Part shown: piece by piece, positions 4,345-39,388 of the stretch
Position numbering within the stretch: the first letter of the stretch is position 1
How the letters are laid out: every line of letters begins with the position of its first letter
Source of the DNA: Synergistaceae bacterium
GTDB taxonomy: Bacteria > Synergistota > Synergistia > Synergistales > Synergistaceae
NCBI GenBank assembly: GCA_031269245.1
Contig: JAISZL010000081.1
Coordinates: 1-51,163, forward strand
Length of the DNA stretch: 51,163 nucleotides
Reading direction: 5' to 3'
Notes under the pieces: generated by a model
Database searches by the model: none
Seen by the model: the letters and a program-made list of their open reading frames with translations, nothing else
Told to the model about the DNA's origin: nothing
Program-made: the position numbers and the translations under genes

Positions 4345-5094
4345 CTATTCGGCGGTTATGATGCGGCCAGAGTAGTCGGCCGCGATCTTCTGTCCAGGGC
4401 GCGTCACCAGGAACCTCTCATCGTCCCACCTGCCGTCTATGAAATCCCTGAGCATACCGCTGTCCCCCCTGACCACGTCGAAGGCCGCCCCCAGGTAGGC
4501 CGCCGCGTCCTTCGTGTACTTCTCGTACTGAGGGAAGTCCATCTCGTCCCACTTTATGTACGCGCAGTGCTCGTAGCTGTCCGGCCACTCCTGCTCGATG
4601 AGGTATTGCGCCCCCTCCTCCCCGTAGCGCTCCGTGTATATGGCGCGGAGCGCGTTTTCGGATTCCTCCGACGGCATGAATGACGAGTTCTCTATCCACG
4701 ACGCGTTGTACCAGTACGTGCCGCGGTGCGAGTCGAAGTAATCCTGATAGGCCTCGTGGGAGCCGAGAAAGAGAGCTATGCAGTCGTGAGCCCTGGGGGT
4801 CACGACTGGGTACTTTTTCGAGCAGAGCCCCACCAGACTGTTTGAGCACAGCCCGTAGCCGAGGAGTATGGCGTCGAAATCGCGTTCCTTGTAATCGTAC
4901 CGCGACTTGTAAGTGTACAAGTCGTTTCCCGAGTCTATCCGCTCCAGCTCGCCCTGAAGCGCTTTTCGGAGCAGATCCGGGGTGCTGTGCAGCCCCTGCC
5001 GGATATAAGTGACGTCCAGATAGTTTTCGCAGGTGGCCGCGATCAGCGATATTTCCCTGAATAACACCTTACATGCGAGCATCTTCAATCTCAT
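4345..5094 (-). CDS. DUF1638 family protein
   Basis: A 249-residue cytosolic protein. The start MRLKMLACKVLFREIS, the segment FDAILLGYGLCSNSLVGL and the later PRAHDCIALFLGS match my memory of the DUF1638 family. These proteins are often encoded beside corrinoid-dependent methyltransferases in anaerobes. The conserved Cys/His-bearing motifs suggest a ligand or metal site, but no activity is known to me. I chose the ATG at 5094 over a TTG at 5133 because it gives the family N-terminus and has GAGAGGA upstream. It is the last gene of the module, 42 bp after the hydantoinase-type gene, and shares its operon with the methyltransferase. Confidence 0.75.
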   Translation of the reverse strand: MRLKMLACKVLFREISLIAATCENYLDVTYIRQGLHSTPDLLRKALQGELERIDSGNDLYTYKSRYDYKERDFDAILLGYGLCSNSLVGLCSKKYPVVTPRAHDCIALFLGSHEAYQDYFDSHRGTYWYNASWIENSSFMPSEESENALRAIYTERYGEEGAQYLIEQEWPDSYEHCAYIKWDEMDFPQYEKYTKDAAAYLGAAFDVVRGDSGMLRDFIDGRWDDERFLVTRPGQKIAADYSGRIITAE

Positions 5095-5136
5095 TCGCGC
5101 ACCCCATCCTCTCAAGTCCGAAAGAACAGACAATCC

Positions 5137-7146
5137 TCAGCCCGCGAGCGGCGAAAGATCGAGGGCTCCCGTGGCCGTGGCCGTCACTTTGTAGCCTATG
5201 TACACCCGGCCGAAATCGGTGTCTGCCGCGCTCTCGCGAGTCTCAACGGCGACGCTCACGTCCCTCTTTGACCCGCGCCTGACGGCCTCCTCGCGCGCCT
5301 TCGCGTCGGCCATCCGCTCCGCCTCGGCCTTCGCATCGTCCAATTTTTTGAAAACCAGCCTCTCCCCGCCGCCGTAGACTACGTATTTGTTCTGAGCCTG
5401 GTCGTAGACGACCTCTATCGTGACTGCCGCGAAAACCTTCGCCACTATCGCCCCGAGGGCGTTAGCTACCTTAGAGTATTCCGAAATGACGACTTTCGTC
5501 CCGAGAAACCGCCCTACGTCCTTGAGGAAAATGTGGGTCGGCGCCCCGACCCCAACCAGCGTCGCCGGTGTCGAGAACAAGCAGCTCAGGTATGAGCCGC
5601 CGCCGTTCTTGGCCTGCTCGTAGCTCCTGTATATCAGCTCCCGCGTCTGCTCGCTCAGGCCTTTTTCCCTCATATCTGGATACGCGTCTTCGATTAGTAC
5701 GCGAACAATATTATAATATAATTTTTTTTTCACTTCGTCATAGATTTTTTCGCAGAGCTCACGCGGGCTTGTTTTCAGCCGGCGCGCCATGATACCGACC
5801 CCCAGCTCCGAGGCTCGCGCGCTGTACCTGGCGAAGTCCCCGCGTATGTGCATGATGTCCGTCGGGGTCAGGCCGCAGCGCATTATGATGCCCTCGCGTA
5901 TCAATCGCTCCAGATGGGACTTCAGCACGATGTCCCCGAGCCTGCCGCTCAGTGCTCGCAAGCTCTGCGGACAATCGAGCAGCGCCGCGGCAGCGATTTT
6001 TTCGTTTTCATTGTACCTGCCTAAGAGGCTTATGTCCTTTATGCCGAGGTAAATATCCTTTTGAGGGCTTGCCGCGTACTCCAAGAGATCCTCTTCCTTC
6101 TCCAGGAGGGTGAGCAGCCCGGGGAAGCGGTGTGCCGCCATGCACAGCGGCATGACGCGTTCCTCGCCGATGACGGCGTCCCCGTCGGCTATGACTATCC
6201 CGCTGTCCCCTCCGAGGCCGAAGGTGTCCACGAAAAGCCCCTTTACGAATGTGTTCCATCCGCCTATCCTGACGCCGCTTTTGACCCTCTGCGGAACTCC
6301 GTCCCTCACGAAGGCGATGTCCGTGGTGGTCCCTCCCATGTCCACTATGACGCAGTTCCGCTCGTCGGTCAGCTCCATTGCCCCCATGACGCTCGCGACC
6401 GGGCCGCAGAGCAGCGTCTCGACGGGGCGGGTGGAGGTGAATCTTTCGGACATGAGGCTGCCGTCGCTTCTCACTATCACGAACGGCGCCTTGATGCCGC
6501 GGTCGCTCAGCGCTTTTTTCACCGCATCCAGAAAACCGGCGATCACCGTGATCAATTGAGCGTTCAAAAGCGCGCTGGCGCCGCGCTTCATGATGTTGTT
6601 CTCGGAGAAGAGCTCGTGAGCGCACACCACTGGGATTGGCGTCTCGCTTTCTATCATTTCGCGAGCCCGCTTCTCCAGCGTTCCGCCCGACTTCCTGGCG
6701 AACATCTCGACCAACCCGACCGCGTCGCACTCCTTGAGCTTGTCGTCGAGCAGCCTCCTGAATTTGTCCCAGTCCGGCGCCTGGACTACGACGCCCGTAG
6801 GCTTCGTCCTGCTCTCCACGTAGCAGAGAGCGTCGTCCCTGTTCAGGCCGTAGTCCGCGCCGACCCGTCTGACTGTGCCCTGGTCGATGCCGAACATGAC
6901 CAGCCGGGCCCTTCCCCCCTTGTTTTCCACGCACGCGTTAGTGGCCAGGGTGGTGGAGAGCGCTATCGCCTCGGCGCTCTCCACCAATTCCCTCGGCAGC
7001 TTGTCGAGGGCGCGCCCGATACCGCGCGACAGGTCGTCCTTCGTCGTGCCGGTCTTGGAGAACGCGGCTATCTTTCTCCTCTCGAAGTCGTAGACGACGG
7101 CGTCGGTGCAGGTGCCCCCCGTGTCAATTCCTATCCCTATCTTCAC
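5137..7146 (-). CDS. hydantoinase/oxoprolinase-family ATPase in a methyltransferase operon
   Basis: A 669-residue protein of the HyuA/oxoprolinase family. The ASKHA-fold nucleotide-binding motifs are visible: GIDTGGTCTDAVV (residues 6-18), VDMGGTTTDIAFV in the middle, and the later VGVGAPTHIF and SKVANALGAIVAK. N-terminal (Hydant_A_N) and central (Hydantoinase_A) domains are present. The C-terminal 100 residues are charged and not recognised. There is no HyuB partner gene, which true hydantoinases and oxoprolinases of this type usually need. Its place between mttB and DUF1638 genes suggests a role in corrinoid methyl transfer, possibly ATP-driven reactivation of oxidised corrinoid. That role is inference. 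The start is GTG with a weak ribosome site, so translational coupling to mttB upstream is likely. Confidence 0.8.
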   Translation of the reverse strand: MKIGIGIDTGGTCTDAVVYDFERRKIAAFSKTGTTKDDLSRGIGRALDKLPRELVESAEAIALSTTLATNACVENKGGRARLVMFGIDQGTVRRVGADYGLNRDDALCYVESRTKPTGVVVQAPDWDKFRRLLDDKLKECDAVGLVEMFARKSGGTLEKRAREMIESETPIPVVCAHELFSENNIMKRGASALLNAQLITVIAGFLDAVKKALSDRGIKAPFVIVRSDGSLMSERFTSTRPVETLLCGPVASVMGAMELTDERNCVIVDMGGTTTDIAFVRDGVPQRVKSGVRIGGWNTFVKGLFVDTFGLGGDSGIVIADGDAVIGEERVMPLCMAAHRFPGLLTLLEKEEDLLEYAASPQKDIYLGIKDISLLGRYNENEKIAAAALLDCPQSLRALSGRLGDIVLKSHLERLIREGIIMRCGLTPTDIMHIRGDFARYSARASELGVGIMARRLKTSPRELCEKIYDEVKKKLYYNIVRVLIEDAYPDMREKGLSEQTRELIYRSYEQAKNGGGSYLSCLFSTPATLVGVGAPTHIFLKDVGRFLGTKVVISEYSKVANALGAIVAKVFAAVTIEVVYDQAQNKYVVYGGGERLVFKKLDDAKAEAERMADAKAREEAVRRGSKRDVSVAVETRESAADTDFGRVYIGYKVTATATGALDLSPLAG

Positions 7147-7196
7147 CTCGGATCGCCACTCATTCCTGTTTGTCGAAGATCAAAAACCCCGGCGGT

Positions 7197-8657
7197 TTAT
7201 TTTTTCTCGGCCGCCGCGTCGGCCAGCCTCAGTATCTCATCCACAGCCGCGTCCTGTTCGGGTGTGAGCGGTTTTGGTTTGTAGTTCTCGATTATGTCGA
7301 TGGCGCGAGCCTTCACCCTCTGCTCGAACGTGGTGCGCCCGTCCCTCTCCCATTTTTCGAGGTCAGCCCTGTCCGTCAGATCGGGGAGCCACATCTCGGC
7401 GTTGTACTCCAGCGTGTGCTCCTCGCTAAGGTAATGCCCCTTCGGGCCGACCTTTTTGATTATGTCTATGGCCATGTGGCTCCTGTCGAAGACCACCCCG
7501 TCGAAGACCCTTCTCATCTGGGATATGGTCTCGTTGGCGGCGACGAGCATCTCGTAGGAGAAGGTGAGCCCGTAATTCATGAAGCCGACGTCGTGGTTCA
7601 AGTTGACGCCGCCGAAGCCGACGGCGAACACGTACTGAGCGGACTCGTTCATGGCCTGCGCGTCGAACACCTTACCGCCGGAACAGCCCGTGAAGCCCCA
7701 CGTCGGCACGTGGTACAGGTCCCGCCCGATCTGCGCCAGAGCGATGTTGTTCACTATGGACTCCGGGGAGCAATATGTGGGTTGCATGCACTTCAGGTCC
7801 ATGTTGTACATGGCGCCCCCGAACACTATCGGGGCGCCCGGGCGTGCCAGCTGGTGGATCACGAGGCCGGCGAGGCACTCGGCATCGGCCTGGATCAGGC
7901 CGCCCGCGTTGGTTATGGGGCCCGTCGCCCCGGTCATCATGCACGGCGAGTAGTTCGTCGGCAATTGGTTCTCCGCGCAGTATATCAATTTGTCAACCGC
8001 GTCGAAGGTGTGGTTGAGAGGGGACGTAGGTTCGTTGTACATGATGAAAAGCGGCCTTTTGGAGAGTTCTTCGAGGCTGCCGCGCACCGCTATGGCCATC
8101 TTCGTGATATTGCTTATGGATTCGCGGTTGGCCGCCGTGACCACCTGTGGCTTCGTCGAGTTGCGGAGCATGACGGCGTACTGATGCTCGTAAGACGTGA
8201 CGGGGTAGTCGTACATCAGGCCGCAGCACATCAGAAAGTCGAGCTGCGGGAGAGCGTCGGTTATCTTGGCCCCGTCCTCCATGTCCTTGTACGTGAATGG
8301 CCTGTGCTCGCCCGTGTACACGTCCAGTATCGTCGGGCAATCCGACCCGGTGCCGTAGTACACGTTCCTGCCGCCGAGGTCCATGGCGATATTCCCGTCC
8401 CTGTCATAGACGTGGATGTGGGACGGCGCCTGCCTGGCCGCCCATTCGACCAAGCCCTCCGGCATGAACACCCTCTTTCCCTTTACGCCGCAGCCGACCT
8501 TCCGCAGCATCTCCCGCGCCCCCTCGTGCTGGATGTCGCTGCCGACCTCCCTTAGCACCTGGAGCGCTCCGCTGTGAACCAGCTCCATCTCCTCCCGCGT
8601 CAGAAACAGCAGCGGCGAGCCGCACTTCTGCACGTTGTTGAAATCCGATCTATCCAT
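7197..8657 (-). CDS. MttB-family (trimethylamine methyltransferase-like) corrinoid methyltransferase, no pyrrolysine
   Basis: A 486-residue TIM-barrel methyltransferase of the MttB superfamily, which moves a methyl group from a quaternary or tertiary amine to a corrinoid protein. Recognisable segments are GSDCPTILDVYTGE, MTGATGPITNAGGL, FGGAMYNMDLK, VPTWGFTGCSGGK and GGVNLNHDVGFMNYG. True trimethylamine MttB reads an in-frame amber codon as pyrrolysine; this frame has none and runs to full length. It therefore belongs with the non-pyrrolysine MttB homologues, such as the glycine betaine enzyme MtgB. Likely substrates are betaine-type compounds, but which one cannot be told. AAGGAGAG precedes the ATG. 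It follows the corrinoid protein gene by 37 bp in the same operon, the usual pairing. Confidence 0.9.
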   Translation of the reverse strand: MDRSDFNNVQKCGSPLLFLTREEMELVHSGALQVLREVGSDIQHEGAREMLRKVGCGVKGKRVFMPEGLVEWAARQAPSHIHVYDRDGNIAMDLGGRNVYYGTGSDCPTILDVYTGEHRPFTYKDMEDGAKITDALPQLDFLMCCGLMYDYPVTSYEHQYAVMLRNSTKPQVVTAANRESISNITKMAIAVRGSLEELSKRPLFIMYNEPTSPLNHTFDAVDKLIYCAENQLPTNYSPCMMTGATGPITNAGGLIQADAECLAGLVIHQLARPGAPIVFGGAMYNMDLKCMQPTYCSPESIVNNIALAQIGRDLYHVPTWGFTGCSGGKVFDAQAMNESAQYVFAVGFGGVNLNHDVGFMNYGLTFSYEMLVAANETISQMRRVFDGVVFDRSHMAIDIIKKVGPKGHYLSEEHTLEYNAEMWLPDLTDRADLEKWERDGRTTFEQRVKARAIDIIENYKPKPLTPEQDAAVDEILRLADAAAEKK

Positions 8658-8694
8658 GTTCTCTCTCCTTGTCAGTCCCTGAAACTCGAACGCC

Positions 8695-9339
8695 TCAGCC
8701 GGATACGCCGACTAATTTTTTGGCGAGATCCACCGCGGAGGTCGCGTTGGTCGCGTAGCCGTCGGCGCCTATCTGGTCCGCGAACTTCTGATTGACCGGC
8801 GCGCCGCCCACCATGACCTTGACCCTGTCCCTCAGCCCCGCTTCCTCCAAAGCCTCGATCGTGTCCTTCATCGAGTACATGGTCGTCGTGAGCAGGGCGG
8901 AGAGGCCGATGATCTTCGTGTCGGGGTTTTCCCGCAGGGCCTCCACCACAGCCTCGGGCTCCACGTCCATCCCTATGTCCACCACCTCGAAGCCGGCGCT
9001 CCCCATGAGGAGGGCGACGAGGTTTTTGCCTATGTCGTGCATGTCTCCCGCCACCGTGGCGCATATGGCCCTGCCCAGCGATTTCACGTCGCCCCCGGAC
9101 AGCATCGGCCTGACCTTCTCCACGCCCGTCTTCATGCATCGGGAGGCGATCAGAAGCTCGGGGACGAATATCTCCCCAAGCCTGAACTTTTCGCCGAGCA
9201 CGTTGATGGGGTCGACTAAACCGACGTTCAGCACGTCAATAGGCGCATTCCCCTCGTCCAGCGCGGCCGCGACCGCCGCCTCGACCTCGCGGAGCTTGCC
9301 GTACTCGACTATCACGGCAAGTTCTGACAATTTCGACAT
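8695..9339 (-). CDS. corrinoid (cobalamin-binding) methyl-carrier protein, MttC/MtbC-like
   Basis: A 214-residue methyl carrier. Residues 1-85 are the helical cap (B12-binding 2 type) and the rest is the Rossmann-like cobalamin domain. The cobalt-ligand motif D-x-H-x-x-G is GDMHDIGKN with His101. The later GLSALLTTTMYSMKDTIEAL and VMVGGAPVNQKFADQIGADGY are typical of MtbC/MttC/MtmC proteins. The ATG at 9339, with AAGGAGGGGG upstream, is preferred to an upstream start at 9381, which would add 14 unconserved residues. It is the first gene of the minus-strand module and should carry the methyl group accepted from the MttB-family enzyme. The next acceptor, presumably tetrahydrofolate via a second methyltransferase, is not encoded here. 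Confidence 0.93.
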   Translation of the reverse strand: MSKLSELAVIVEYGKLREVEAAVAAALDEGNAPIDVLNVGLVDPINVLGEKFRLGEIFVPELLIASRCMKTGVEKVRPMLSGGDVKSLGRAICATVAGDMHDIGKNLVALLMGSAGFEVVDIGMDVEPEAVVEALRENPDTKIIGLSALLTTTMYSMKDTIEALEEAGLRDRVKVMVGGAPVNQKFADQIGADGYATNATSAVDLAKKLVGVSG

Positions 9340-9374
9340 TAAAATACTCCCCCTCCTTCGATTTTTTGCGGCTA

Positions 9375-9470
9375 ATACCAATTCGCGATCATCAGGCTGT
9401 TTTTGATGCGGCTGAAGCGCTTGTTCAAACCTGTTTTAACGCTTCACCCTAGCATAAGTGTTAGCTCGAC
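9375..9470 (+). repeat. dispersed repeat, ATACCAATTCG-edged form
   Basis: Begins ATACCAATTCGCGATCATCA, followed by GGCTGTTTTTGATGCGGCTGAA and, after a variable stretch, TTTTAACGCTTCACCCT. It lines up with 38751-38859 and with the reverse complement of 43743-43839. It lies in the 5' leader of the corrinoid protein gene, so it is transcribed on that mRNA in antisense orientation. Confidence 0.7.
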
Positions 9471-33779: not shown

Positions 33780-36028
<2,249 letters not shown>

Positions 36029-36147: not shown

Positions 36148-36160
36148 GTGATTGGCGGTC

Positions 36161-36673
36161 ATGCAGATCGCCGACATTGATTTTTGCGGCCCCGGGGACC
36201 TGGCGTCGCTCATCGCGATAGAGTCCGCCTGTTTCAAGACTCCGTGGGCTACGCCCATGATCGAATACGACCTGAACAATCCCGGCCCCGCCATATACAT
36301 GAAAGCGGTCATGAAGGGCGTGACGGTCGGCTATGGGGTTTTGAGCATGTCGGAGACGGCAAGCCACCTCATGAACCTGGCGGTGCTGCCGGAGTTCCGG
36401 ATGCGCTGCGTCGCGCTTCAACTGATGTCGGCCTTCGACGAGCTCTCGCGCTTGCGGGGCTGCGACCGTATGCGCTTAGAGGTTCGCTCGTCGAACGTCG
36501 TCGCGCGAAAATTCTACGCCTCCCTCGGATTCGTCTATTCGTGCAGGGAGAAGGCCTACTACGCGGACGGCGAGGACGGGATCGTGCTCGTCTCTCGCCT
36601 CCCGCTCAAGATCGAGTATCGGATGCGCCCCGACGACTTTGACAAACATATCCAAACTCCTAGCCGCGGATAA
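36161..36673 (+). CDS. rimI: RimI-like GNAT N-acetyltransferase
   Basis: A 170-residue GNAT-fold enzyme; RimI acetylates the N-terminus of ribosomal protein S18. Evidence is the order IADIDFCGPGDLASLIAIE, FKTPWATPMIEYDL, a central beta strand (GYGVLSMSETASHLMNLAVLP), and the late RMRLEVRSSNVVARKFYASLGF with the YGFxxxxxRxxYY-like end. The usual acetyl-CoA loop RxxGxA reads FRMRCVALQLM here, so the P-loop is altered and substrate or activity may differ. The ATG at 36161 is used; a TTG three codons upstream is possible. It overlaps the radical-SAM gene by 35 bp. Confidence 0.8.
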   Translation: MQIADIDFCGPGDLASLIAIESACFKTPWATPMIEYDLNNPGPAIYMKAVMKGVTVGYGVLSMSETASHLMNLAVLPEFRMRCVALQLMSAFDELSRLRGCDRMRLEVRSSNVVARKFYASLGFVYSCREKAYYADGEDGIVLVSRLPLKIEYRMRPDDFDKHIQTPSRG

Positions 36674-37733
36674 AATCTCGTTCCCCGGCGACGCACTGCG
36701 CTACGGAGAGGGCGGGACGTTCTCCGCCCCTGTCGTGGTCTGGCATATGACGAGCCGCTGCAATCTGGCGTGCCGCCACTGCTACGCCGCTCACCCCGGC
36801 ACGGAGCCGTTCGACATGGATCGCGGCGAGGCGTCCGCGTTTTTGGGCGCGCTCGGCCGGTTGCGCGTCCCGGCGCTTCTGATGTCGGGCGGCGAACCGA
36901 TGGCGCACCCGGAGTTTTTTTCGTGCGTTTCAATGGCCCGCGACAGAGGGCTGCGGGTTACGCTCTCCACGAATGGCACGATGATAGACCGCGACGCCGC
37001 GCGGCGGATGTCCGGCGCGGTGGGGTACGTCGGCGTCAGCGTGGACGGCCCCACCGCCGTGAACGACGCGTTTCGCGGCATGGACGGGGCGTTCCGCGCC
37101 TCTACTGAGGCAATGGGATTCCTCGCCGCAAGCGGCGTCAGGGTCGGGCTGCGGGTCACGCTGGCCCGTCCCGTGCTGCGCCGCCTGCCCGATATATTTC
37201 GCTTGGCGGAGGACCTCCCCGTGTCCCGGATATGCTTCTACCATTTCGTGCCCTCCGGCCGAGGGGCGCTTGACGCCTCGCTTGCCCCCTCTGAGGCCGA
37301 GCGAGCCCGCGCGGTCGGAGCGATAATCGAGTGGGCGGACTCGGCGCCCCGCGGCGCCTCTCTTGAGATACTCACGGTCGGCGACGCCTCCGACGGCGTC
37401 AGGGTGCGTGAGTATCTGAGGGAGACCGACGAGGGCCGCCTCGCCGGAGCAGAGGCTCTGTTTGGGCGCGCCGCATCCGGCGTGTCGCCCGGGCTGCTCT
37501 CGGTGAGGTGGGACGGCGTGGTGTTCCCCAACCAATTCGCCTGGGACCGCCCGCTCGGGACGTGGCGCGAGCTGGAGAGGATCATGGGGGACGCCCGTCG
37601 CGGCGGGACGGCCCCCGAGTGCCTGACGTGTGCCTGGTCCGCCCGAGGGATATGCCCTGGCCGCCTCGAGATTCTGAGCGAGCGCCTGGGCGAACCGTGC
37701 CCCCTGCATGAGCGTGGTCATGGAAGAGCGTAG
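36639..37733 (+). CDS. AhbC/NirJ-like radical SAM protein (heme-pathway type)
   Basis: A 364-residue radical-SAM enzyme. The opening ISKLLAADKISFPGDALRYG matches the AhbC/NirJ start (ISKLL...GDALRYG). The SAM cluster is Cys41, Cys45 and Cys48 in CNLACRHCYA, followed by LLMSGGEPMAHP. A second iron-sulfur site of twitch/SPASM type is suggested by Cys328, Cys331, Cys339 and Cys354. AhbC removes two acetate side chains from didecarboxysiroheme in the siroheme route to heme; NirJ does the related step for heme d1. The next gene encodes the decarboxylase that would make its substrate. The start is TTG, chosen from family fit. It overlaps rimI by 35 bp and the next gene by 26 bp. Confidence 0.8.
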   Translation: MTNISKLLAADKISFPGDALRYGEGGTFSAPVVVWHMTSRCNLACRHCYAAHPGTEPFDMDRGEASAFLGALGRLRVPALLMSGGEPMAHPEFFSCVSMARDRGLRVTLSTNGTMIDRDAARRMSGAVGYVGVSVDGPTAVNDAFRGMDGAFRASTEAMGFLAASGVRVGLRVTLARPVLRRLPDIFRLAEDLPVSRICFYHFVPSGRGALDASLAPSEAERARAVGAIIEWADSAPRGASLEILTVGDASDGVRVREYLRETDEGRLAGAEALFGRAASGVSPGLLSVRWDGVVFPNQFAWDRPLGTWRELERIMGDARRGGTAPECLTCAWSARGICPGRLEILSERLGEPCPLHERGHGRA

Positions 37734-38751
37734 CGCGCCCGGCGTCTGGCGCGGCGGCGGGGATTGCGCCGCTGTGGCCTCGTCGCTGGAGGCGGGGCTC
37801 AAAATAGTGCCGGAGCCGTTTCTCGAGGTCGCGCGCGAGACGGGCGTGCCGGAGGGGAGGGTGCTAGAGATAGCGCGCGGCATGGTTGCCTCGGGCTTCA
37901 TCCGGCGCTTTGGGGCGTTCTTCGACTTCAGGAGCTTTGGGCTGAAGGGTTACCTCTTCGGCGCCGAGCTGCCCGGCGACGGGGCGGGCGGCGTGATCTC
38001 GTCCGTCTGCCGCATGGGTTGCGTGACGCACTGCTACGCGAGGCGCCACGCGCTGGGCCTCTGGTTCACCGCCATCCTGGGCGGCGACGGGGACGCCCGC
38101 GCGATCGGCGGCGCGCTTCGGCGGCGCGGCCTTGCGTTCGTCGCCCTGGACGTGAGGGAGAGGATAAAGCTGTGCCCGTCCTTTGCTCCGCCGGGGGCCG
38201 AGCATGAGCCCCGAGATGTCCGTTGCGGCGAGGTTCAACCGGCGCGGCTGGGAGCGCGGGGGATGGCGATAGCGCGGGCGCTTCAGGACCGGTTCGGGAT
38301 CTCGAATCGCCCGTATGCCGAGGTCGCGGACGCCCTGGGCATGGGCGCGCGAGGCGAGGGCGTCGTCATGGATGAGGCTGCCCGCCTCCTCGAAGAGGGC
38401 GTTCTGAGGAGGATCGGCGCGTCGCTGAACCACAACCGCGCCGGCTGGATGTACAACAGCCTGACCGCGTGGGACGTCTCCCATCTGAGCGAGTCGGACG
38501 CCCTGTCCGCCGCGCGCTCCGCCGTACACGGCCGCCGGTGGGCGAGTCACTGCTACCTGAGGAGGGTGATCCGCTCCAATTTGCCTTGCGCGTGGCCGTA
38601 TAATTTATATATAATGATACACGCTAGGACCGAGGGCGAGATGGAGGAGAGGGAGCGCGTTCTGTCCCTCGATTTGGCGCGCGGGCAAACGGGGAATTTC
38701 GTCTCCATGCGCACAGAGGCCGAGCACAAGAAAATTTCCTTTATGATTTAA
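37708..38751 (+). CDS. fused siroheme decarboxylase (AhbA-AhbB in one chain)
   Basis: 347 residues made of two AsnC/Lrp-like halves. Residues 24-160 resemble AhbA (FLEVARETGV... FIRRFGAFFDFRSFGLKG, then VTHCYARRHALGLWFT). Residues 185-330 resemble AhbB (YAEVADALGM... VLRRIGASLNHNRAGWMYN, then WASHCYLRR and WPYNLYIMIHA). AhbA and AhbB are normally separate proteins that form a heterodimer and remove two carboxyl groups from siroheme. Here a linker of about 25 residues joins them. It overlaps the AhbC-like gene by 26 bp, so the two are probably made together. An AhbD gene and the siroheme genes are not in the window. Confidence 0.83.
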   Translation: MSVVMEERSAPGVWRGGGDCAAVASSLEAGLKIVPEPFLEVARETGVPEGRVLEIARGMVASGFIRRFGAFFDFRSFGLKGYLFGAELPGDGAGGVISSVCRMGCVTHCYARRHALGLWFTAILGGDGDARAIGGALRRRGLAFVALDVRERIKLCPSFAPPGAEHEPRDVRCGEVQPARLGARGMAIARALQDRFGISNRPYAEVADALGMGARGEGVVMDEAARLLEEGVLRRIGASLNHNRAGWMYNSLTAWDVSHLSESDALSAARSAVHGRRWASHCYLRRVIRSNLPCAWPYNLYIMIHARTEGEMEERERVLSLDLARGQTGNFVSMRTEAEHKKISFMI

Positions 38752-38859: not shown

Positions 38860-38908
38860 ATAATATATTTATATCGGGGTGATTCGCGTGTCGCTGGCGG
38901 AGAGAAAG

Positions 38909-39388
38909 ATGCGGAGGACGGACAAGGAAGTGAGGGACAGGGCGTGGATGGATGACGTGCTCGGGAGGGGGCAGTTCATCTCCGTCGCGCTCTCCACGCT
39001 GGACGGCGAGCCGTATGTCGTTCCAATGGGGTACGGGTACGAGGGGGGCGTCATTTACCTTCACGGCGCAAAGAGCGGCCTGAAGAACGATTTGATGGCG
39101 GAGAACCCGAGGGTGTCGTTCAACGTCTGCGTTGACGTGGAGGTGTTCCGCCACGAGACGACGGGCTCCAAATTCAGCGTGAAGTACAGGAGCGTGACCG
39201 GCTTCGGCACGATTTCGGAGGTCAACGGCCTAGCCCTCAAGAACCGCGCGCTGGCCGCGATAATGAGGCAGTACGACGGCCCGCATGACGACCTGACGGA
39301 GAGGAACGAGGACCGCGTGTGGATCGGCAGGATAGACATCCTAGGCATGAAGGGTAAGGAGAGCGGTCACAGGCACGCGGCGGATTGA
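38909..39388 (+). CDS. pyridoxamine 5'-phosphate oxidase-family flavin protein (NimA-like)
   Basis: A 159-residue FMN-binding split-barrel protein. It starts MRRTDKEVRDRAWMDDVLGRGQFISVALSTLDGEP-like and continues with VVPMGYGYEGGVIYLHGAKSG, the usual FMN-contact strand pair, and SVTGFGTISEV. This fits the PF12900 group that includes nitroimidazole reductase NimA. The ATG at 38909 with GGAGAG upstream gives the family start; a GTG at 38888 is also possible. It follows the ahb-type genes across a repeat, so cotranscription is uncertain. The substrate is unknown; FMN or heme binding is known in the wider fold. Confidence 0.8.
   Translation: MRRTDKEVRDRAWMDDVLGRGQFISVALSTLDGEPYVVPMGYGYEGGVIYLHGAKSGLKNDLMAENPRVSFNVCVDVEVFRHETTGSKFSVKYRSVTGFGTISEVNGLALKNRALAAIMRQYDGPHDDLTERNEDRVWIGRIDILGMKGKESGHRHAAD

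Follow-up and report, generated by a model that had tools for sequence, protein, structure and literature searches.

A predicted fused AhbA-AhbB siroheme decarboxylase and its divergent AhbC/NirJ1-lineage radical-SAM partner in Synergistaceae

Fusion of AhbA and AhbB into a single protein is encountered in almost all heme-making archaea except the methanogens (PMC3004389, PMC3942049, PMC11237513), and such a fusion has also been described in Dehalobacter (PMC4751268). A further fused AhbA-AhbB gene lies on the Paenibacillus polymyxa plasmid pSb31l, next to genes for NirJ1 and NirJ2 (NirJ1-NirJ2-fused AhbAB operon; L067:4744-7951). This operon is annotated as an AsnC regulator and two generic radical-SAM proteins, an example of how easily AhbAB and NirJ-type proteins are misnamed. 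Structures are available for NirDL (4ch7 and 4czc), the siroheme decarboxylase of Hydrogenobacter thermophilus. The view from which the original prediction started, namely that siroheme decarboxylase is normally a heterodimer of separate subunits, does not hold in general, since fused forms occur in archaea, Hydrogenobacter, Dehalobacter and on the Paenibacillus plasmid; the AhbA-AhbB fusion itself is already known and not unusual. For Synergistota, a literature search for siroheme decarboxylase returned nothing specific.

Here we analysed a stretch of 51,163 nucleotides (the window), which is an entire contig (C80) of a draft Synergistaceae genome of 2.34 Mb that is 97% complete. We propose, with a probability of roughly 0.6, that this window encodes a reduced and diverged siroheme-modifying (Ahb) pathway that leads no further than iron-coproporphyrin III or some related tetrapyrrole. 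The locus is of moderate interest, mainly because the last step is missing and the auxiliary cluster of the radical-SAM protein is altered.

Domains, fold and catalytic motifs of the fused protein

The position and length of the fused open reading frame and its overlap with the radical-SAM open reading frame were as first described (Table 1). Likewise, both quoted sets of motifs were found in the protein, with VTHCYARRHALGLWFT at residues 106-121 and WASHCYLRR and WPYNLYIMIHA within residues 278-306. The first ~18 residues of the fused protein displayed no conservation among 15 carriers and were modelled with low confidence, so that the start of the gene is unsure; translation may begin at another position, which would also change the length of the overlap. 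By eye, no strong ribosome-binding site was seen upstream of the ATG. The TTG start of the radical-SAM gene is backed by relatives that begin at the same place.

Table 1. Positions of the gene pair, its motifs and its flanking genes in the window
Feature	Coordinates	Strand	Details
PurA, upstream flank	34727..36028	+	Conserved synteny only
RimI N-acetyltransferase, upstream flank	36152..36673	+	Conserved synteny only
Divergent AhbC/NirJ1-lineage radical-SAM gene	36639..37733	+	364 aa, TTG start
Radical-SAM cluster motif CX3CX2C (C41, C45, C48)	36759..36782	+	Intact
Shortened auxiliary Fe-S motif CX2CX7CX14C (C328, C331, C339, C354)	37620..37700	+	
Overlap of radical-SAM and fused open reading frames	37708..37733	+	26 bp
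Predicted fused AhbA-AhbB (NirDL-type) siroheme decarboxylase	37708..38751	+	347 aa, ATG start
AhbA-like N-half			Residues ~20-160 of fused protein
HXYXR motif of AhbA half, H108-C-Y-A-R112	38029..38043	+	Alignment to 4czd_A
AhbB-like C-half			Residues ~183-347 of fused protein
HXYXR motif of AhbB half, H281-C-Y-L-R285	38548..38562	+	Alignment to 4czd_B
PNPOx / Nim-like split-barrel flavoprotein	38879..39388	+	169 aa; relatives begin near M11, position 38909

In Pfam, the fused protein matched PF17805 (1.8e-17) and PF22451 (8.1e-16) with two copies each, so that each half contains a NirDL-type HTH and an AsnC-like ligand domain. Among PDB sequences it matched 4ch7, a 'NirD-like protein', over residues 25-327 (2.6e-26), and orthologues with 29-62% identity were present in 14 other genomes. 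Because of the Pfam scores, the 4ch7 match and these orthologues, a chance resemblance is excluded. A scan of named genomes for the family yielded five loci only, all of this same family, and the named relatives that carry it are Synergistaceae metagenome bins.

The halves were also compared with the NCBIfam models. The whole chain reached 143 bits with the AhbB model (cut-off 125; E-value 5e-42), a score that sums both halves, and 89.6 bits with the AhbA model (cut-off 140), a score that adds two stretches. When the halves were scored singly, the N-half was best matched by AhbA (60.5 bits; cut-off 140) and the C-half by AhbB (96.6 bits; cut-off 125); the best models thus followed in the expected order, AhbA and then AhbB, though each remained below its cut-off. 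When halves and subunits were entered separately into a tree, the N-halves grouped with AhbA, NirD and NirG, and the C-halves with AhbB, NirL and NirH, with support of 100/99 each. The domains and the half-by-half tree are in agreement with the idea that the two halves are separately AhbA-like and AhbB-like; the scores of the single halves, below their cut-offs, count against our proposal.

The predicted structure had a mean pLDDT of 89.2. When this model was used in a fold search, ranks 1-6 were occupied by 4ch7, 4czc and 4czd, with 4ch7 and 4czc first (E 1.4e-22). Sequence comparison and structure prediction, the latter proposed earlier as a check, both gave the siroheme decarboxylase NirDL (4ch7) as the best full-length match.

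In the AhbA of Desulfovibrio desulfuricans, His115 is an iron ligand, and Arg102 of its AhbB is catalytic (PMC4145669). A gapless alignment to 4czd_A placed H108 and R112 of the fused protein at His115A and Arg119A of AhbA. In the other half, alignment to 4czd_B placed H281, Y283 and R285 at His98, Tyr100 and Arg102 of AhbB, a numbering that presumes a 20-residue tag offset in 4czd_B. Residues H108, Y110 and R112, as well as H281, Y283 and R285, were invariant in 15 of 15 carriers.

Conceivably, the fused protein could be no enzyme at all but a regulator of the Lrp/AsnC type or a tetrapyrrole sensor, as its fold is common to Lrp/AsnC proteins, Lrp structures come next in the fold list, and AhbA/B of D. 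vulgaris and M. barkeri bind heme (PMC4145669). We consider this very improbable. In the fold search the Lrp/AsnC structures ranked far behind the three decarboxylase entries, and the regulator models gave only 14.9 bits (PF13404; cut-off 27) and 12.5 bits (LrpA; cut-off 250). The E-value of 0.099 for LrpA is near background, as against 5e-42 for AhbB, which shows that the halves score as siroheme decarboxylase and not as the ordinary regulators whose better scores would have spoken against the prediction. Furthermore, the catalytic residues are invariant in the 15 carriers, and the only broken motifs that we found come from genomes without the radical-SAM partner, as detailed below.

Lineage and auxiliary cluster of the radical-SAM protein

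The names in this protein family call for care. In archaeal papers 'NirJ1' denotes AhbD (PMC3942049). The NCBIfam NirJ1 model is AhbC-like: the Paenibacillus NirJ1 scores 519 bits with AhbC and 235 with AhbD, and the Paenibacillus NirJ2 324 bits with AhbD and 194 with AhbC. The radical-SAM protein of the window was matched by the NirJ1 (210 bits), AhbC (191), NirJ (178) and AhbD (122) models, all far below the cut-offs of ~500-650; specifically, neither the cut-off of 650 for NirJ1 nor that of 650 for AhbC (TIGR04546) was reached. The NirJ1 and AhbC models were matched by all 12 radical-SAM members. In a tree computed without archaeal or Desulfovibrio AhbC, the protein was placed with the NirJ1 (AhbC-type) lineage (85/94). 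Its closest relative outside the fused cassettes was the NirJ1 of another genome (G069; 100/100), which stems from an intact NirJ1-NirJ2-AhbA-AhbB operon. The models and this tree placement bear out the description of the neighbouring gene as AhbC-like.

The tree also bears on the product. Since the closest solved structure is the Hydrogenobacter NirDL with its identical domain order, the two proteins of the window might correspond in function to NirDL and NirJ, respectively, and make heme d1 or a d1-like cofactor, one of the products that the original prediction had considered. However, NirJ forms a clade of its own (100/99), and the protein of the window branches outside it, within the AhbC/NirJ1 lineage, so that a heme d1-like product is disfavoured. 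In addition, the cassette has no neighbour with a cytochrome-d1 domain or resembling NirS, unlike nir operons. We consider this reading very improbable.

An auxiliary [4Fe-4S] cluster is bound in both NirJ and AhbC by the motif CX2CX5CX20-21C (PMC12505453). We found this canonical motif in NirJ, in NirJ1, in the haloarchaeal TIGR04347 protein, in G001 and in five carriers of the neighbouring family. In the clade of the window the motif takes the form CX2-3CX5-7CX7-14C (11 of 11 full-length members), and the segment NxRxRA...EDP, which separates auxiliary cysteines three and four elsewhere, has been lost. The motif is missing altogether from the orthologue in G034 (L035:7121-8092), which ends before the auxiliary cluster, either through a frameshift or as a genuine truncation. 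Because the protein of the window scores far below the cut-offs and has lost the canonical spacing, the AhbC reaction cannot be assumed for it.

Conservation of the pair, pathway context and proposed product

Of 188 Synergistota genomes, 31 encode the decarboxylase, in fused form in 22 and as split subunits in 9. The radical-SAM protein is likewise encoded in 31, and 29 genomes have both. In two of the four exceptions (G028 and G037), the radical-SAM gene is located at a contig end. The fused decarboxylase gene is kept without a radical-SAM partner in G148 (L109:8338-9381) and G145 (L110:7712-8758). Here the HXYXR motifs have decayed: G148 has HNDLR and RCYIR, both broken, and G145 has RGDLR in one half and an intact HCYIR in the other. 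The radical-SAM gene and the motifs are both intact in the close relatives G146 and G147. G145 and G148 represent a natural experiment on what the decarboxylase protein does once the pathway is gone. G032 lacks both cassette genes: at the corresponding site, with rimI on one side and the gene for PNPOx on the other, an unrelated stretch is found instead (L126:8563-9262); by eye, the short gene at this site encodes a macro-domain protein. The two genes are thus kept and lost together across Synergistota, and from their co-occurrence, the decay in G145 and G148 and the joint absence in G032 we conclude that the pair is the core unit. Among the loci inspected, split operons have NirJ1 and NirJ2, and fused cassettes only the NirJ1-like gene.

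A third gene, for a PNPOx protein, had been missing from the original prediction. Each of the 15 carriers in the window's family has it next to the pair; in G001 it lies upstream, in the other 14 downstream. We rejected the idea that the pathway depends on this protein, since the gene was detected in 100 of the 188 Synergistota genomes, G032 has it although the pair is gone, and in several carriers it is not linked to the pair. As most of these 100 genomes lack the pair, the protein is not dedicated to heme formation; it is a possible accessory to the pathway. Elsewhere in the window (4345-9381), genes for an MttB-type methyltransferase, a corrinoid protein, a hydantoinase-like/activase-like protein and a DUF1638 protein stand in a row and form a corrinoid-dependent methyltransferase system.

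A genome devoid of siroheme synthesis genes would have spoken against a siroheme substrate. The genome was found to encode HemA, HemL, HemB, HemC, HemD, SUMT, a precorrin-2 dehydrogenase domain, CbiK and a cobalamin cluster, so that the genes of the route are present. On contig C11 of this genome two of the functions are fused to others, a precorrin-2-dehydrogenase-like domain to HemC (L064:10054-11673) and SUMT to HemD (L064:8582-10057). CbiK-type enzymes are able to insert iron, and CbiK would be the candidate for iron insertion into siroheme. The CbiK chelatase on C11 (L065:1178-2104) has an apparent N-terminal signal peptide and might work outside the cytoplasm; with the cobaltochelatase model it reaches 200 of 400 bits. 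An AsrC-like siroheme protein with the CX5C/CX3C motif is also encoded. The genome makes precorrin-2 and, judged from its gene content, probably siroheme; the precursor genes together with the AsrC-like protein make a siroheme pool plausible.

As the host runs a B12 pathway and the contig with the precorrin-2 genes also has the cobalamin cluster with CbiK, the pair could instead act on another substrate, such as a corrinoid precursor or metal-free sirohydrochlorin. We regard this as improbable, for H108, the equivalent of the AhbA iron ligand, is invariant, a siroheme protein is present, and many relatives have HemB and SUMT without the pair. Siroheme remains the likely substrate, as first proposed.

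In line with the absence of AhbD from the window, no AhbD match above the cut-off was detected in the genome itself or in 12 other carriers (13 in total). The only long AhbD-like protein of this genome, C43 (L038:6315-8117), was set aside as AhbD: this radical-SAM/SPASM protein scores 116 bits with both AhbD (cut-off 500) and TIGR04053, and it lies beside small nif11-like ORFs (recognised by eye) and fatty-acid-synthesis-type genes. Its low AhbD score and the nif11-like ORFs make it more likely a peptide maturase, and its locus is likely a ribosomal-peptide cassette. Neither HemH (ferrochelatase) nor, as a heme user, cytochrome bd was detected in 34 genomes. These results weigh against an ordinary heme b route whose last step would fall to an enzyme not yet recognised in this role, for which ChdC, a further radical-SAM protein and the linked PNPOx protein are candidates. 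Such a route would fit the grouping of the lineage with operons that have the full NirJ1-NirJ2-AhbA-AhbB set, and the PNPOx gene is linked in every carrier of the family, but that gene is widespread and mostly occurs without the pair. We consider a heme b route unlikely.

For the proposed reduced Ahb pathway, we infer the substrate, both reactions and the product of the pair as follows. The fused AhbA-AhbB protein would fold as a single-chain pseudo-heterodimer and likely converts siroheme to 12,18-didecarboxysiroheme by decarboxylation of the acetate groups at C12 and C18. The radical-SAM enzyme would then take off further side chains, the C2 and C7 acetates if it is AhbC-like, and its product would be iron-coproporphyrin III or a close relative; this AhbC-like step is possible and, because of the altered auxiliary-cluster loop, uncertain. 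Since AhbD/NirJ2 and ferrochelatase are absent, the pathway would stop there, and the end product could be a cofactor in its own right, be handed on, or undergo completion by some unrecognised enzyme. Points against the proposal are that no protein using coproheme or heme came to light and that the genome is a draft of 97% completeness. There is precedent for a pathway that ends before heme, as coproheme is the natural cofactor in two ferritin-like proteins, the only two reported to use it in this way apart from heme synthesis (PMC13168243). That the radical-SAM enzyme of this clade, with its rebuilt auxiliary-cluster loop and no AhbD partner, makes an end product different from heme b and heme d1, either coproheme as the final cofactor or an undescribed modified tetrapyrrole, is a tentative idea with somewhat less than an even chance. 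If the pathway does end before heme b, these bacteria would use the siroheme route to supply a cofactor that is neither heme b nor heme d1 nor siroheme itself.

Comparison with known siroheme decarboxylases and their radical-SAM partners

The most economical history would start from a NirJ1-NirJ2-AhbA-AhbB operon, in which the decarboxylase genes became fused while the operon lost NirJ2 and its NirJ1 diverged; the auxiliary-cluster loop would have been rebuilt later, in the clade of the window. Present-day genomes provide a natural series, from the intact operon through the reduced pair with the canonical motif and the reduced pair with the altered motif to the lone decarboxylase with a decayed motif, which is suited to testing which AhbC-type residues decide the reaction. 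In the half-by-half tree, the fused form of Synergistota constitutes a separate branch, supported by 100/99 in the N-half and by 88/89 in the C-half; the Paenibacillus fusion lies outside it and clusters with the split subunits of other Synergistales.

With NirDL (4ch7, 4czc), the protein of the window shares the single chain, the two halves of HTH and AsnC-like domains, the D-L order and the whole-length fold; it differs in sequence (22% identity) and in having a radical-SAM protein of the AhbC/NirJ1 lineage as its genomic partner. The archaeal, Dehalobacter and P. polymyxa plasmid systems have the same AhbA-AhbB fusion and NirJ-type radical-SAM genes in the same pathway but, unlike the pair described here, are accompanied by both AhbC/NirJ1 and AhbD/NirJ2. 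The split NirJ1-NirJ2-AhbA-AhbB operons of other Synergistales (L111-L119) belong to the same phylum and encode a homologous decarboxylase and NirJ1, whereas they differ in their separate subunits, two radical-SAM genes and canonical auxiliary motif. Finally, the radical-SAM protein has in common with AhbC/NirJ1 (TIGR04546/TIGR04054) the N-terminus INISKLL...GD.LRY, the CX3CX2C motif, its closest models and its position in the tree, and it is set apart by a shorter C-terminus and by CX2CX7CX14C in place of CX2CX5CX20-21C.
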